This document shows positions 12,189 to 23,781 of a DNA stretch of 38,713 nucleotides, one piece after another. The translations under genes were made by a program, and so were the position numbers. Each line of letters opens with the position of its first letter. Position 1 is the first letter of the stretch. The stretch is from Thermoleophilia bacterium. Lineage in GTDB: Bacteria; Actinomycetota; Thermoleophilia; Miltoncostaeales; Miltoncostaeaceae. The notes beneath the pieces are model-generated. The model did not search any database and was not told the origin of the DNA. It saw only the letters and a program-made list of their open reading frames with translations. The stretch spans positions 1-38,713 of the forward strand of contig JALOLS010000011.1 in assembly GCA_025455865.1 (NCBI GenBank), written 5' to 3'.

Positions 12189-13274
12189 CTACCCGGCGGC
12201 GGGGACCACCGGCGCCTCACCCATCCGCCGCAGCCAGCGCCCGTGGGACCGGAGCGCGAACGCCATGTTCGGCTGCACGTTGTGGCGCACGCCGTGCTTC
12301 TCGCACAGCTCCCGCACGATCGGGCTGATGCGGGCGTAGTGGACGTGGCAGACCTTCGGCATCAGATGGTGCTCCACCTGGAAGTTCAGCCCGCCCAGGT
12401 ACCACCGCAGCAGCCGGCTGCTGGGCGCGAAGTCGACCGTGGTCTCGACCTGGTGCAGGGCCCAGTCCCGCCGCGGGCCCTCCCGCAGCGCGTCCACCGA
12501 CGTGAACTCGGCCTCCTCCACGCAGTGGGCCAGCTGGAAGACCACCGCGAGGGTCACACCGAGCACCCAGCTCACCAGCAGGAAGCACAGCAGGACGCCC
12601 CACCAGGGGTGCAGGAGCAGCGGCAGGGCGAGGGCCCAGCCCCAGAACACGACCTTGCCCCCCACGTAGAGCACGAGCTGCCAGCCGCGCGGCCGCTCGA
12701 GGCGGCTCATCCCCGAGCGCCCCTGCACCACCGGCACGATGTCGCCGATCAGGTGGTGCTTGATGGTGTACATGCCGTACAGGGGCCACATGTAGATGTG
12801 CTGCCAGCGGTGGATCCGCCGGCGGGGCTGGTCCGGGGCCAGGCGCGCCAGCGGCATCTGCTCGATGTCGGTGTCGGCCCCGACCACGTTGGTGAACGAG
12901 TGGTGGGCGTGGTTGTGCTTGGCCTTCCACACGTACGAGCTCGCCCCGATCAGGTCGAACACGAGCCCGAGGGTGTCGTTCACCCGCCGGCCGCCGGGGG
13001 CCGCGCCGTGGTTGGCGTCGTGGCCGATCGAGAAGGCGATGCCGGCCAGGGCGAAGCCGAGCGACACCGACAGCAGCGCGAACTGCCAGGGCTCGCTGGC
13101 CCACAGCACGAGCGCCAGGTACGACCCGATGCCCCAGGTGAGCATCGTGGCCGCCTTCAGCGAGAAGCGCCACGCCCCGGCGCGGAGGCGCCGCGGCGTC
13201 AGCTCCGCCTTCACCCGGGCCCGGAGCTCACGCTGGAACTCGCCACCGCCGCGGAACAGCCCCTGCTCACCCAT
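12189..13274 (-). CDS. Membrane fatty-acid desaturase (DesA3/linoleoyl-CoA desaturase-like)
   Basis: This di-iron integral membrane desaturase has 361 residues from ATG 13274, which has GGGGGAG 4 nt upstream. The three histidine boxes are intact: HDANHG (85-90), HNHAHH (120-125) and QVEHH (299-303). The glutamine in the third box is typical of the COG3239 group that includes front-end and acyl-CoA/lipid desaturases. There are four or more hydrophobic helices (about 45-60, 65-85, 203-222, 225-248) and no fused cytochrome b5 domain, so electrons must come from a separate ferredoxin or reductase. Regioselectivity cannot be read. It sits between aroE and pilB, where the conserved cluster does not require it, and probably tunes membrane fluidity. 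Confidence 0.9.
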   Translation of the reverse strand: MGEQGLFRGGGEFQRELRARVKAELTPRRLRAGAWRFSLKAATMLTWGIGSYLALVLWASEPWQFALLSVSLGFALAGIAFSIGHDANHGAAPGGRRVNDTLGLVFDLIGASSYVWKAKHNHAHHSFTNVVGADTDIEQMPLARLAPDQPRRRIHRWQHIYMWPLYGMYTIKHHLIGDIVPVVQGRSGMSRLERPRGWQLVLYVGGKVVFWGWALALPLLLHPWWGVLLCFLLVSWVLGVTLAVVFQLAHCVEEAEFTSVDALREGPRRDWALHQVETTVDFAPSSRLLRWYLGGLNFQVEHHLMPKVCHVHYARISPIVRELCEKHGVRHNVQPNMAFALRSHGRWLRRMGEAPVVPAAG

Positions 13275-13386
13275 ACGACTCCCCCGGTGGCGGGGAACGG
13301 TGATCGCGGGAAGCTGGCCCGCCACCTCCAACGGCAAGGCTACAGGCTTCCCACGGCGCCTGGAGGAATTGCGGCTTTACCGTAGG

Positions 13387-18105: not shown

Positions 18106-21100
18106 TCACCGGTCCAGATCGAGGATGGCCGAGGCCGAGGTGAAGCCGGCGCCGAAGGTCACCAGGCCGACCCGGCCGGACGGCGCCGGCACGCGCGCGG
18201 CGAGCTCGGCCAGGGCCAGCGGGATCGTGCTGGAGGAGGTGTTGCCCCAGCGGTCGACGTTGACCACGAAGTGCTCGGGCCCGAGCCCGGAGCGGGCGCG
18301 GATGGCGTCGATGATGCGGGCGTTGGCCTGGTGCGGGACCACCAGATCGAGGTCGGTGACCGCGATCCCCTCGTCCGCGCAGGCGCGCTCGAGCATCCGG
18401 AGCATCTCCCGCACGGCGAACTGGTAGACGCGGGGGCCGTCCATGTGGACCGGCGAGGTGCCGCCGATCCCCTGGGAGAGCACGCGCCCGTCCTCGCCGC
18501 GGGCGGCGAGCAGCGGCCGGTGCAGGAGCCCCCAGGCCCCCTCCAGCCGCGCCGGGCCGCGGACCACCGTGGCGGTGGCGGCGTCGCCGAACACCACCGC
18601 CGTGTCGAAGTCGCCGGGGTCCAGGTACTGGGACATGGCCTCGGCCGTGACGACCAGGACGGCCGCCTCGGGCCGCTGCTGGCACAGGTCCCACGCGGCC
18701 TGCAGGGCGTAGAGGTAGCCGGAGCAGGCGGCCAGGATGTCGCTCGCCGCGACGTCGCGCGCGGTGCCCTCCTCGGCCAGGCGGTGGTGCACCAGGCAGG
18801 CGAGGCTCGGGCTGATGGACGGCGGCGTGCCGGTGGCGACGTAGATCGCCTCGAGGTCGGCCACGTCCAGCCCGGCCTCGTCCAGGGCCATGCGGGCCGC
18901 ATCGGCGGCCAGGCCGGTGATCGTCTCGCCCTCGGCCAGGAACCGCCGGCTGCGGATGCCGGTGCGGCGCAGGATGTCCTCGACCGAGCGGTCGGGGAAC
19001 CCGGCCGCGAGCTCCTCGCTGGACACCTCGCGCCCGCCGGGCACGAACACCGGCCGCCCGAGGGCGACCAGCGCGCGCTCGACCGGGGCCTGCTCGCGCC
19101 GCCGGCCGGGCAGCGCCGGGGCGCCGGTGCGCCGGTCGACGTGGGGGACCGGCTCGGCCGGGATGCGCCGGCGGGCCACCTGCTCACCCGCGGCCAGCGT
19201 GATGCGGGCGATGGGGGTGCCGACCGGCACGGGATCCGCCTCGGCGTGGAGGCCGGCGATGACCCCGGTGGCCGGCGCCCGGAGCTCGAAGGTGGCCTTG
19301 TCGGCCTCGCACTCGGCGATCATGTCGCCGGCGCGGACCTCGTCGCCGTCGCCGACCAGCCACTCCAGCACCATCACCTGCTGGTCGGCCGGGCTGGAGC
19401 CCGCGGCCTCGATGACCAGCACGCCGTCCTCGGCGTGGGGCTCGGTGAAGCGCACGTCGAGGCCGAGCATCTCGCCGGCCACCTCGAGCACGTCGCGCAG
19501 CGACGGGAGCACGGCGATCTGGTTGTTGTAGTTGCACGGCACGTGGGTGTCGGGCCGGGCCACCCGGCGGACCGCCACCCCGGGCACGCGCTCCGCCACC
19601 GTCGCGACCACCTCGGCGCCGAAGCCGCCGGTGAGCGCGTCCTCGTGGGCGACCAGCAGGCGCCCGGTGCGCCGGGCGCTCTGCACGACGGCGTCGGCGT
19701 CCCAGGGCGAGATCGCGCGCAGGTCGATGAGGTCGCAGGTGATCCCCGCCGAGGCGAGCGCCCGCACCGCGGCCTGGCAGCCGCGCACGGTGGAGCCCCA
19801 GGTCACGATGGTGAGGTCCTCGCCGTGCTCGACCACCCGAGCGGCGCCGGGGCGCACCACCTCCCCCACGCAGGCCGGCGGGGCGGCGAGGGTGGGGTCG
19901 TTCAGGCAGGTCTTGGGGTACAGGAAGACCGTGGGGCGCCCGGTCGCGAGCGCCGCGTTCAGCAGGCCGGCCGCGTCGGCGGCGGTGCTCGGCATGACCA
20001 CGTCGATGCCGGGCACGTGCCCGAGCACCGCCTCGTGGGTGGCCGCATGCCACGGCCCGAGGCCCGGGCGGTAGCCGCCGCAGGGCGCCATGACCACCAC
20101 CCCGGCGTCCCAGCCGCCGTCGGTGCGCCAGTACATGGTGGCCATCTCGGTGATGATCTGGTTGAAGGCGAGCGGCATGAAGTCCGCGAACTGCATACAC
20201 GCGACCGGCCGCCCGCCGGCCAGCGCGCGGCCGACCGCGACGCCGACGATGGTCGACTCCGACAGCGGCGAGTTGGCGACCCGGCCCGGGAAGTCGGTGG
20301 ACAGGCCGCGGGTCAGGCCGAAGACGTCGCCCTTGGGGTCCTCGATGTCCTCGCCGTAGACGCTCACCCGGGGGTCGGTGGCCAGGTGGGCGCGCAGGAC
20401 CTCCCGCATGGCCTCGAGCATGGTGAGCGGGGCGTCGGTGGCCGGGGCGGGCGGCGCGGGGATGTGGTCGGGAAGCGGCGGCACCGCGGTGAGCGCCGGC
20501 TCGGGGTCCGGGGCGGTCAGGGCGCGCTCGGCGGCCGCGCGCACCTCGGCCTCGACCTCGGCCTCGATCCCGGCGAGGGCGTCCTCGCCCACCCCGGCGG
20601 CCAGCAGGTCCTCGCGCAGGCGGCGGACCGGGTCGCCCTCCTCCCGGGCCCGCTCGCGCTCCTCGGCCGGGCGGTACACCCGCTCGTCGTCGGCGTTCGT
20701 GTGGTGGGAGAGCCGCTCCACCGACATCACGCACAAGGCCGGCCCGCGGCCCTCGCGCACCTGCCGCACGAGCCGCGCGGCCTCGGCGTCGACGGCCAGC
20801 GGGTCGCGCCCGTCGACCCGGTGCACGGGCAGGCCGAGGAACTCCGCGGCCGGGCCGCCGGGCAGGTCGTAGAGCGTCTGGCCGCGGGTGCGGGTGGAGA
20901 TGGCCAGCCCGTTGTCCTCGATCCAGAAGAGCACCGGCAGGTGGGAGCGGACCGCCTCGGCGATGGCCTCGAGGAACTCGCCCTGCTGGCTCGACCCGTC
21001 GCCGCCGGCGCACAGGACGACCGGGGCGCCCTCGGCGTGGAGCACCTCCCGGGCCACCCCCACCGCGTGCAGGGCGCCGTTGCCGACCGGGCCGGGGATG

Positions 21101-21468
21101 GACAGGATGCGCAGGTCCGGGGCGCTCGGGTGGGCGCTCATCTGCCGCCCGGCCGACTGCGAGCGCGCGGTGCACAGCACGTTGTGCATGAGGTCCTCGG
21201 ACGTCATGCCCCGCGCGATCATCAGGCCCTTCTGGCGGTAGTGGACCTGCAGCCAGTCCCGGGGCCCGAGGTGCGCGGCCAGGGCCGCCGACGCCTCGTG
21301 CCCGGAGCCCGACAGGTGGAAGAACGCCTCGCCGCGGTCGACCAGCTCCATCTCGAGGATGTCCGCCCAGCGGGCGGTGAGCATGGCCCGGTAGAGGTCC
21401 AGCGCGGCGCCGGGCGCCAGCGCGGGCGGGGCGGCCAGCGCCGAGGTGCCCACGGGCGGGCGCGTCAC
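18106..21468 (-). CDS. E1alpha-E1beta-lipoyl-KAS III fusion (2-oxoacid dehydrogenase fused to ketoacyl synthase III)
   Basis: One 1120-residue polypeptide joins four parts. Residues 20-330 are a TPP-dependent E1 alpha (GDG at 156-158, N186, and the phosphorylation-loop-like RLSHHTNADD). Residues 345-670 are E1 beta (YGEDIE, PLSESTIVG with E404, QIITEMATMYW). Residues 682-760 are a lipoyl domain with the lysine in EADKA (K724). After a Pro/Arg-rich linker, residues 800-1120 are a complete KAS III (FabH) domain with C915 (AACSGY), H1046 (PHQANAR) and N1076 (WGNTSSS). There is no E2 acyltransferase or E3 domain. The layout suggests decarboxylation of a branched or short 2-oxoacid, transfer of the acyl group to lipoate, and condensation with malonyl-ACP to start fatty-acid synthesis; this is inference. 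The GTG start overlaps a leader ORF. It lies inside the conserved DUF948...alaS order, where it is not normally found. Confidence 0.92.
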   Translation of the reverse strand: MTRPPVGTSALAAPPALAPGAALDLYRAMLTARWADILEMELVDRGEAFFHLSGSGHEASAALAAHLGPRDWLQVHYRQKGLMIARGMTSEDLMHNVLCTARSQSAGRQMSAHPSAPDLRILSIPGPVGNGALHAVGVAREVLHAEGAPVVLCAGGDGSSQQGEFLEAIAEAVRSHLPVLFWIEDNGLAISTRTRGQTLYDLPGGPAAEFLGLPVHRVDGRDPLAVDAEAARLVRQVREGRGPALCVMSVERLSHHTNADDERVYRPAEERERAREEGDPVRRLREDLLAAGVGEDALAGIEAEVEAEVRAAAERALTAPDPEPALTAVPPLPDHIPAPPAPATDAPLTMLEAMREVLRAHLATDPRVSVYGEDIEDPKGDVFGLTRGLSTDFPGRVANSPLSESTIVGVAVGRALAGGRPVACMQFADFMPLAFNQIITEMATMYWRTDGGWDAGVVVMAPCGGYRPGLGPWHAATHEAVLGHVPGIDVVMPSTAADAAGLLNAALATGRPTVFLYPKTCLNDPTLAAPPACVGEVVRPGAARVVEHGEDLTIVTWGSTVRGCQAAVRALASAGITCDLIDLRAISPWDADAVVQSARRTGRLLVAHEDALTGGFGAEVVATVAERVPGVAVRRVARPDTHVPCNYNNQIAVLPSLRDVLEVAGEMLGLDVRFTEPHAEDGVLVIEAAGSSPADQQVMVLEWLVGDGDEVRAGDMIAECEADKATFELRAPATGVIAGLHAEADPVPVGTPIARITLAAGEQVARRRIPAEPVPHVDRRTGAPALPGRRREQAPVERALVALGRPVFVPGGREVSSEELAAGFPDRSVEDILRRTGIRSRRFLAEGETITGLAADAARMALDEAGLDVADLEAIYVATGTPPSISPSLACLVHHRLAEEGTARDVAASDILAACSGYLYALQAAWDLCQQRPEAAVLVVTAEAMSQYLDPGDFDTAVVFGDAATATVVRGPARLEGAWGLLHRPLLAARGEDGRVLSQGIGGTSPVHMDGPRVYQFAVREMLRMLERACADEGIAVTDLDLVVPHQANARIIDAIRARSGLGPEHFVVNVDRWGNTSSSTIPLALAELAARVPAPSGRVGLVTFGAGFTSASAILDLDR

Positions 21469-21772: not shown

Positions 21773-22297
21773 TCAGGCGGCGGGCGGGCCCGCGGGCGGG
21801 GCGGCCGGGCCGGTCGGGTAGGGGCTCTCGGGGCGGTGCCGGGGCTCGGCCGGAGCGGCCGGGGCCGGGCCCGCCGGGGGCGGCCCGGCGACCGTCACCA
21901 CCGGGCGCGACGCGGTGATGTCGGTGTCCGGCCGGCCGGCCGCGCGGCGCGCCTTGAAGGTCTTCAGCGCCTCCTTGGTGGCGGTCGAGATCCCCGAGAG
22001 CTTGCGCACCGGGGCCCCGACCGCGCTGGAGACCTCGGTCACCGCCTTCTCGGCCCCCTTGGTGGCCCCGACCGCGCTCTGCATGATCTCGTCCACGTGG
22101 CCCAGGTTGGCGTTGACCTCGTCGACGGTGGTCTGGGCCCGGGTGAGGATCGGCACGGTCTCCTCGGTCATCTGCCCGACCGAGCGGGTGAGCTGCAGGA
22201 ACAGGTTGCCCAGGCGCCAGAGCGCGTAGGCGAGCCCCGCCCCCGCCGCCACCAGGAAGATGGCGAGCGCGATGTCGGCGACGTCCGACCAGTCCAT
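21773..22297 (-). CDS. DUF948-domain membrane protein
   Basis: ATG 22297 overlaps the mnmA TGA by one base and has AGGAGG 5 nt upstream, giving 174 residues. An N-terminal helix (DIALAIFLVAAGAGLAYALW) is followed by the DUF948 coiled-coil region, with TEETVPILTRAQTTVDEVNANL and HVDEIMQSAVGATKGAEKAV, which resembles the helical stalk of methyl-accepting proteins. From about residue 130 it becomes Pro/Ala-rich and disordered. The role is unknown. The family is a regular member of the actinobacterial mnmA/alaS neighbourhood. Confidence 0.85.
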   Translation of the reverse strand: MDWSDVADIALAIFLVAAGAGLAYALWRLGNLFLQLTRSVGQMTEETVPILTRAQTTVDEVNANLGHVDEIMQSAVGATKGAEKAVTEVSSAVGAPVRKLSGISTATKEALKTFKARRAAGRPDTDITASRPVVTVAGPPPAGPAPAAPAEPRHRPESPYPTGPAAPPAGPPAA

Positions 22298-23781
22298 CAG
22301 ACCTCCTGCTCGATCGCGCCGGGCAGGCCGCCCGCGCTGATGATCCCCGCCGCCACCAGGCGGCCGTCCCGGTACAGCGCGGCGGTCTGGCCCGGGGCCA
22401 CCCCGTCCGCGTCCTCCTCCAGCCGCACCGCGATGGCGCGTCCCCCGCGGGGCCGGGCCCAGCCGCGGATGGTCCGCCCGCGATGGCGCACGCGGACCTC
22501 GAGCGGCCCGTCGATGGCGTCGTGCACCGCGGCGTCCTCCAGGGCGATCTCCCGCACCCGGAGCGCCTCGCGGGGGCCGACCACGACCGCGTTCCGCCCG
22601 GGGTCGGTGGCCACCACGTAGCGCGGCCCGGGGCCCGCCACCCCCACCCCCCGGCGCTGGCCGACGGTGAAGTTCCAGTAGCCGGGATGGACCCCCACCT
22701 CGCGGCCGTCCAGGTCGAGCACGGGGCCGGGCCGGGGCGCCAGGCCCGCGTGCCGCTCGAGGAAGGCCGCATACCCGTCGGCGCCGACGAAGCAGACCTC
22801 CTGGCTCTCCACCGCGGCGGCGGCGGGCAGCGCGGCCCGCGCGGCCAGGCGGCGCACCTCGTCCTTGGTCAGGTCGCCGAGGGGGAAGACCAGGCGGCCC
22901 AGGACCGGCCCGGCGAGGCGGGCGAGCATGTAGCTCTGGTCCTTGCCCCGGTCGGCGGCCCGGGCGACGACCGCGCGGCCGCCCGGTCCGCGGGCGACCC
23001 GGGCGTAGTGGCCGGTGGCGAGGGCGCGCGCCCCGACCAGGGCGGCGGCCTCGGCCAGGATCCGGAAGCGCACCTCGCCATTGCAGGTCACGCAGGGGTT
23101 CGGGGTGCGGCCCGCCCGGTAGCCGGCCATGAAGCCCTCGACCACGCCGGCGCGGAAGCGCTCGGCCGCGTCGAGGGTCAGGTGCGGGATGCCGAGCGCC
23201 CGGGCCGACGCGCGGGCCAGGCGCACGGTCTCGGGCGCGCAGCAGGAGCGCTCGGCCGCGGCCGCGGCCGGGTCGTGCCACAGGCGCATGGTCACGCCCA
23301 CCACGTCCCAGCCCGCGTCGCGCAGGAGCATCGCGGCCACCGCGCTGTCCACCCCGCCGCTCATCGCCACCGCGACGCGGCGGCGGGCGAGCGGGATGCC
23401 GGGATCCCCCAGGCGATCGGAGTGCCAGCGCTCGAGCGCCCGCGCGACGGCCTCGGCGACCAGGTCGGGGCCGTGGGCGCGGTCCGGGCCCAGGCCCCCG
23501 AGGTCCGTGTCGAGGTCGGCGGCCCCGAGGCGGAGGGCGTCGTCGATCCGAGCGCCGGTCAGGCGGGCGCAGGCGGCGCTCGCGGCGGCCGTCGCCGCCC
23601 CGCATCCGAAGGCCAGGAAGCCCGCCTCGCGGACCCGGCCGCCGGCGATCCGCAGGCGCATGCGCACCAGGTCGCCGCAGGCGGTGGACCCCGCCTCACC
23701 CTCCGCGTCCGGGGCGGCGACGCCTCCGGCGCCCACCGGGGACGCGAGGTGGCGCATTGCCTCGGGGGGGTAGGGCGGCAC
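22297..23781 (-). CDS. mnmA: tRNA 2-thiouridylase MnmA with an N-terminal IscU-like domain
   Basis: The 494-residue product is about 120 residues longer than ordinary MnmA. Residues 10-125 resemble the IscU/NifU-N Fe-S scaffold: HLASPVGAGG (as in 'f.nP.NvG'), TACGD with C35 and D37, FLAFGCGAATAAASA with C60, then ARLTG. The third scaffold cysteine is missing; WHS occupies its place. From residue 135 MnmA follows: the PP-loop AMSGGVDSAVAAMLL, RTPNPCVTCNGEVRF with C230 and C233, KDQSYMLARL, SQEVCFVG with C330, and the beta-barrel end starting at YWNFTVGQRRG. It thiolates U34 of tRNA-Lys/Glu/Gln. GTG 23781 or ATG 23757 may be the start; neither has a strong ribosome site. GATAAC lies 8 nt before the GTG, so a leaderless transcript is possible. 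Confidence 0.93.
   Translation of the reverse strand: MPPYPPEAMRHLASPVGAGGVAAPDAEGEAGSTACGDLVRMRLRIAGGRVREAGFLAFGCGAATAAASAACARLTGARIDDALRLGAADLDTDLGGLGPDRAHGPDLVAEAVARALERWHSDRLGDPGIPLARRRVAVAMSGGVDSAVAAMLLRDAGWDVVGVTMRLWHDPAAAAAERSCCAPETVRLARASARALGIPHLTLDAAERFRAGVVEGFMAGYRAGRTPNPCVTCNGEVRFRILAEAAALVGARALATGHYARVARGPGGRAVVARAADRGKDQSYMLARLAGPVLGRLVFPLGDLTKDEVRRLAARAALPAAAAVESQEVCFVGADGYAAFLERHAGLAPRPGPVLDLDGREVGVHPGYWNFTVGQRRGVGVAGPGPRYVVATDPGRNAVVVGPREALRVREIALEDAAVHDAIDGPLEVRVRHRGRTIRGWARPRGGRAIAVRLEEDADGVAPGQTAALYRDGRLVAAGIISAGGLPGAIEQEV

Follow-up and report, generated by a model that had tools for sequence, protein, structure and literature searches.

Can the lipoyl arm of a 2-oxoacid dehydrogenase hand its acyl group straight to a condensing enzyme? 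Special fatty-acid primers, branched or other, are normally made as free acyl-CoA and only then taken up by FabH. The question is raised by an ORF of 1120 amino acids (18106..21468, reverse strand, GTG start) in the window, that is, the whole 38,713-nucleotide stretch of Thermoleophilia DNA analysed here, which joins E1alpha, E1beta, lipoyl and KAS III domains in a single polypeptide. Our main reading, built on sequence comparison and held at a probability of about 0.73, is that the protein is a 2-oxoacid dehydrogenase with a condensing enzyme in the place of E2, in which the acyl group would pass from the lipoyl arm to Cys915 and then be condensed with malonyl-ACP.

Domain architecture and active-site conservation

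The frame was open throughout, and the GC content at the three codon positions (0.78/0.53/0.99) followed the pattern of a real gene in a window of 75% GC. Pfam matches, all above the gathering cut-offs, were obtained for E1_dh (residues 26-324), Transket_pyr (348-522), Transketolase_C (541-648), Biotin_lipoyl (697-756), ACP_syn_III (910-971) and ACP_syn_III_C (1030-1117). On the reverse strand, as are all the features described below, the E1alpha domain occupies 20497..21393 and carries the TPP motif GDG (156-158)...EDN (184-186) together with H256. It is followed by the pyrimidine-binding domain of E1beta (19903..20427), with E404 and H474, and by the E1beta transketolase C-terminal domain (19525..19848), placed by Pfam. 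The lipoyl domain (about residues 681-758, 19195..19428) opens with a derived signature, SSPADQ, and presents the lipoylatable Lys724 within EADKA (19297..19299). A Pro/Arg/Ala-rich linker (about 759-805, 19054..19194), which measures 48-70 amino acids among homologues, leads to the KAS III domain of FabH fold (about 806-1117, 18118..19053), which was assigned from both Pfam and a structure match. Its catalytic residues, Cys915 (18724..18726), His1046 (18331..18333) and Asn1076 (18241..18243), were located by conservation and alignment. The Pfam and NCBIfam scans of the ORF revealed no E2 catalytic core (PF00198), no E1/E3-binding domain and no E3 domain. The first-pass annotation had described an E1, a lipoyl arm and a KAS III in one chain, lacking an E2 acyltransferase core and an E3; Pfam and the homologues confirmed this arrangement, the domain scans agreed on the missing parts, and its coordinates, lipoylatable lysine and catalytic triad coincided with ours; the strand had been left unstated there.

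The domain folds were also confirmed in an AlphaFold model of the full chain (22-sequence alignment, mean pLDDT of 77.5, pTM of 0.64), which matched PDB structures of E1beta and FabH and, over the E1 part, those of transketolases as well. The pLDDT values within the linker were low at residues 766-770 and 784-797. Because E1 (alpha2beta2) and KAS III (dimer) are oligomeric, the single-chain model does not bear on the reach of the arm into the KAS III tunnel.

Comparison of 26 full-length fusions showed that K724, C915, H1046, N1076, H256, H474 and E404 were invariant (26/26), as were the TPP residues G156, D157 and N186; flanking positions varied in a few places, among them D723 and the last residue of GDG. 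The protein thus has what is expected of an E1 of the alpha2beta2 type, namely both E1 domains with the TPP motif and their catalytic histidines, and, at the sequence level, a lipoyl domain bearing a lipoylatable lysine. Alignment to the Thermus and human E1 enzymes identified H256 as the equivalent of human BCKDH alpha-His291 and H474 as that of beta-His146, the human beta position being assigned by homology. Both human residues are tied to reductive acylation in the title of PDB entry 1ols. Since the histidines of reductive acylation and the TPP residues are invariant, the E1 half should be capable of charging the lipoyl arm with an acyl group.

Loss of the CoA grip in the fused KAS III

To compare the condensing domains, 42 fused KAS III domains (34 distinct at <95% identity) were aligned with 33 FabHs that stand alone in carrier genomes or related ones. 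The numbering is that of E. coli FabH, whose sequence had the expected residues at the catalytic positions. In FabH structures, Thr28, Trp32 and Arg151 contact the CoA adenine, while Arg36, Asn209 and Asn246 (Y. pestis numbering) lie at the pantetheine (PMC4606726). The adenine contacts, present in all 33 stand-alone FabHs, had disappeared from all 42 fused domains: W32 was replaced by D, E or K (Asp831 in the window protein, 18976..18978), R151 by F or Y (Phe954, 18607..18609) and T28 by R, K, S or Y. Forty positions were invariant among the stand-alone FabHs; the invariant residue never occurred in the fused domains at six of them, T28, W32 and R151 included, and in a ranking of group-specific sites across 317 positions R151, W32 and T28 came third to fifth. 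The Cys-His-Asn triad, N247 and R249 were retained in 42/42 fused domains and R36 in 36/42. This pattern fits a domain that would still bind malonyl-ACP via the pantetheine tunnel and for which holding a CoA primer has become unnecessary.

Two further changes affected the surroundings of the active site. In most fused copies the segment corresponding to E. coli residues 180-207 was shortened by about 12 residues, which, as a guess, leaves room for the shorter lipoyl arm. Position 87, where size sets the primer length, being bulky for acetyl and small for longer chains (PMC3734052), was changed from F to S or T in all fused copies (Ser886 in the window protein, 18811..18813), so that the gate of the acyl pocket is opened. 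PqsD, a diverged KAS III that does use acyl-CoA, has kept an aromatic residue at position 32 (Phe32) and the arginines of the entrance (PMC3734052). The fused domain did not reach the NCBIfam FabH models, scoring 238.6 bits against a cut-off of 249 and 213.1 against 292.1. As the comparison was made with stand-alone FabHs, the lost adenine grip argues better for 'not CoA' than for 'lipoyl', and it would be compatible with an acyl-ACP donor or with weak use of acyl-CoA. CorB, for which a structure is available in the PDB, is an example of a KAS III that takes an ACP-bound primer.

With regard to the substrate, the E1alpha region scored best among solved structures with the branched-chain enzyme of Thermus thermophilus (137 bits), followed by human BCKDH (98 bits) and pyruvate dehydrogenases (at most 81 bits), and E1beta came nearest to chains of an archaeal 'pyruvate dehydrogenase' and of the Thermus enzyme. 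Together with the opened gate at position 87, the E1alpha similarity leans towards a bulkier 2-oxoacid than pyruvate, either branched-chain or aromatic. The iso/anteiso product proposed at first is kept as a weak lean. In two Phycisphaeraceae (L031:4179-7742 and L033:3037-6642) the fusion lies just downstream of a gene for an indolepyruvate ferredoxin oxidoreductase-like protein of 1,187-1,201 amino acids; this neighbour might hint at aromatic 2-oxoacids in these two genomes and is not decisive. A diverged KAS II-like gene was found near the fusion at both loci, on the opposite strand.

Distribution, probable domain exchange and genomic context

The architecture search suggested together with the first description was run, and its taxonomic range proved wide: the identical architecture was found intact in dozens of independent genomes of Thermoleophilia, Verrucomicrobiota and Planctomycetota, three phyla in all, at 45-62% identity. 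Two further genomes of the window's family encode the full-length intact protein (59-60% identity). A scan of GTDB genomes yielded about 29 copies, full-length or cut by contig ends, on contigs titled Verrucomicrobia, Thermoleophilia/Miltoncostaeales and Phycisphaeraceae, and one copy of the fusion sits on a contig of >700 kb. The fusion was detected in 19/299 genomes of a class-wide sample, belonging to two of 114 genera (the window's genus and one other), and in 5/396 genomes of a sample of the window's phylum, from the same two genera. Full fusions were present in 14/286 genomes of the Verrucomicrobia class sample, with identity down to 45%, and the fusion in 3/294 of the Planctomycetota sample. 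This patchy distribution suggests horizontal transfer. Carriers titled 'Acidobacteria' (L041) and 'Bifidobacterium breve' (L019, L039) were considered as additional phyla and rejected; as the genes next to the fusion resemble those of Thermoleophilia carriers, the titles are probably wrong, and neither group was counted.

In six Planctomycetota genomes the match was limited to the E1 and lipoyl regions though the ORFs were about 1,150 amino acids long, and the same held for a Verrucomicrobiota ORF (L130). Pfam analysis of four of these seven ORFs assigned to all four the order E1alpha-E1beta-lipoyl-PF00198, with the E2 catalytic domain at the position of the KAS III; the other three were alike in sequence, and the frame of one of them (L138) is interrupted. 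When a maximum-likelihood tree was built from 624 columns of the E1 region in 59 sequences, all the KAS III forms fell into one clade (aLRT/UFBoot 100/100). The next branches outward were the Planctomycetota E2 forms and L130, followed by Chloroflexi E1alphabeta fusions and separate E1s; outgroup sampling in this tree was modest, the E2-bearing sequences coming from one Planctomycetota sample and one Verrucomicrobiota genome. In the KAS III tree, the fused domains likewise formed one clade, set apart from the FabHs by a long branch. The N-terminus of the lipoyl domain was derived in the KAS III forms (SSPADQ, ASPTDQ, SASDD) and in the Planctomycetota E2 forms (QSPTDED), and this derived form was absent from L130 and from the canonical lipoyl domains compared. 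The lipoyl motif itself reads EANKG in the Planctomycetota E2 forms (L134-L137, L139), in place of E(T/A)DKA. Since the E2 forms branch just outside the single KAS III clade, KAS III probably took the place of E2 once, in a chain that already had the order E1-lipoyl-E2.

A stand-alone FabH was also present in all 14 carrier genomes checked, which led us to reject the fusion as the sole KAS III of the cell and suggests that it would be a second, dedicated initiator. E2 domains were encoded elsewhere in every carrier genome checked, and besides the fusion the genome of the window has an E1/E2 complex of its own as well as an ordinary FabH. A conserved gene cluster was likewise rejected: the neighbours vary between phyla, so that no constant partner gene was found. 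The aminotransferase adjoining the fusion in some Verrucomicrobia is an LL-diaminopimelate aminotransferase, an enzyme of the lysine pathway. Two genera of the family have a fatty-acid desaturase gene at a distance of about 6 kb or less from the fusion (12189-13337, reverse strand, in the window; L013:2137-3252); it was not seen at the other related loci. In genus g10 (L019, L023, L028 and others) the fusion has luciferase-like monooxygenase genes on both sides: the one immediately upstream is divergently oriented, and a second follows a few genes further downstream. A separate ORF of the window (22297-23781, reverse strand) combines a NifU-like N-terminal domain with MnmA (tRNA 2-thiouridylase), linking a sulfur/Fe-S scaffold to tRNA thiolation.

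Proposed mechanism and comparison with known systems

According to the proposed mechanism, the E1 part would decarboxylate a 2-oxoacid on TPP and reductively acylate the lipoyl arm at K724. The arm would swing on its flexible linker and pass the acyl group directly to Cys915 of the KAS III, without free acyl-CoA. Condensation of the acyl-enzyme with malonyl-ACP would then yield a 3-oxoacyl-ACP whose primer derives from the 2-oxoacid, and an E3 encoded elsewhere would reoxidise the dihydrolipoyl arm. Direct transfer, already put forward by the first-pass annotation, is now backed by two independent lines of evidence, the E2-to-KAS III swap and the loss of the CoA-adenine grip; we infer it from residues and domain order, and as such it is well supported. 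Malonyl-ACP as the acceptor and E3 acting in trans are likewise inferred. The earlier term 'self-contained' does not quite apply, since the protein depends on outside sources for E3, lipoylation and ACP; the outside E3 it had called for is absent from the ORF and was found in the genome, which also encodes LipA and LipB. It is likely, if somewhat less so than the main reading, that the protein is a CoA-independent initiation enzyme leading from a 2-oxoacid to a 3-oxoacyl-ACP on one polypeptide, and that its gene has travelled alone between distant phyla.

Other explanations differ in the role they give to the KAS III domain. It would serve as an acyltransferase, taking the acyl group off the lipoyl arm and passing it to ACP or some other acceptor to form an acyl-ACP or an ester without decarboxylative condensation, if its position, that of the E2 acyltransferase, also set its chemistry; some KAS III-like enzymes are indeed pure acyltransferases. 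The full Cys-His-Asn triad, kept in 42/42 domains and typical of decarboxylative condensation, renders this unlikely. We regard as equally improbable that the two halves work separately, the E1-lipoyl part feeding a resident E2 that releases free acyl-CoA and the KAS III being primed by acyl-CoA or acyl-ACP, with co-expression as the only benefit of the fusion. Stand-alone E2 domains are available in the carrier genomes, and by the established route branched-chain primers are supplied to FabH as free acyl-CoA (PMC10026030). However, the CoA-adenine contacts are gone from all the fused KAS III domains, E2 and KAS III were exchanged at one place behind the lipoyl arm, and the ORF has no recognisable E1/E3-binding domain on which an E2 core could dock.

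A joint function would be altogether missing if the fusion were an assembly artefact, a chance joining or a decaying gene, and the original annotation had named homologues split into two genes, with an assembly join here, as the finding that would overturn it. The intact full-length homologues elsewhere exclude such a join, and the artefact or decay explanation is negligible in view of the integrity of the fusion across three phyla and many independent genomes, the main groupings common to the E1 and KAS III trees and the conservation of all the active-site residues.

No description of the E1-lipoyl-KAS III architecture was found in a search of the open PMC literature; the parts are individually known, and their combination and the exchange of E2 for KAS III appear to be new. 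If the primer is kept on the lipoyl arm, fatty-acid or polyketide chains would be initiated by a new route, and a multienzyme complex would clearly have altered its chemistry through the swap of one domain. The fusion allows lipoyl-to-ketosynthase transfer to be tested directly in a single protein, and hints that members of Verrucomicrobiota, Phycisphaeraceae and Thermoleophilia make an undescribed lipid or polyketide.

Among known systems, FabH/KAS III enzymes resemble the fused domain in fold, in the Cys-His-Asn triad and in the pantetheine-side N247 and R249, at roughly 33-40% identity. The fused domain differs in having lost the T28, W32 and R151 contacts, in the change of F87 to S/T, in the shortened 180-207 segment and in its scores below the NCBIfam FabH cut-offs, and it is joined to its own acyl donor. 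The BCKDH complex shares with the fusion the E1 fold, the residues for TPP binding and reductive acylation and the lipoyl arm. Unlike that complex, the fusion carries E1alpha, E1beta and the lipoyl domain on one chain and has neither an E2 catalytic core nor a peripheral subunit-binding domain, the KAS III standing in the place of E2. The closest counterparts are the E1alpha-E1beta-lipoyl-E2 chains of Planctomycetota (L134-L137, L139) and of the Verrucomicrobiota genome (L130), which match the fusion in the order of their domains and, at about 40% identity, in the sequence of E1; the Planctomycetota chains, and not L130, have the derived lipoyl signature in common with the KAS III fusion. The C-terminal domain is PF00198 in all these chains, whereas it is a KAS III in the window protein.
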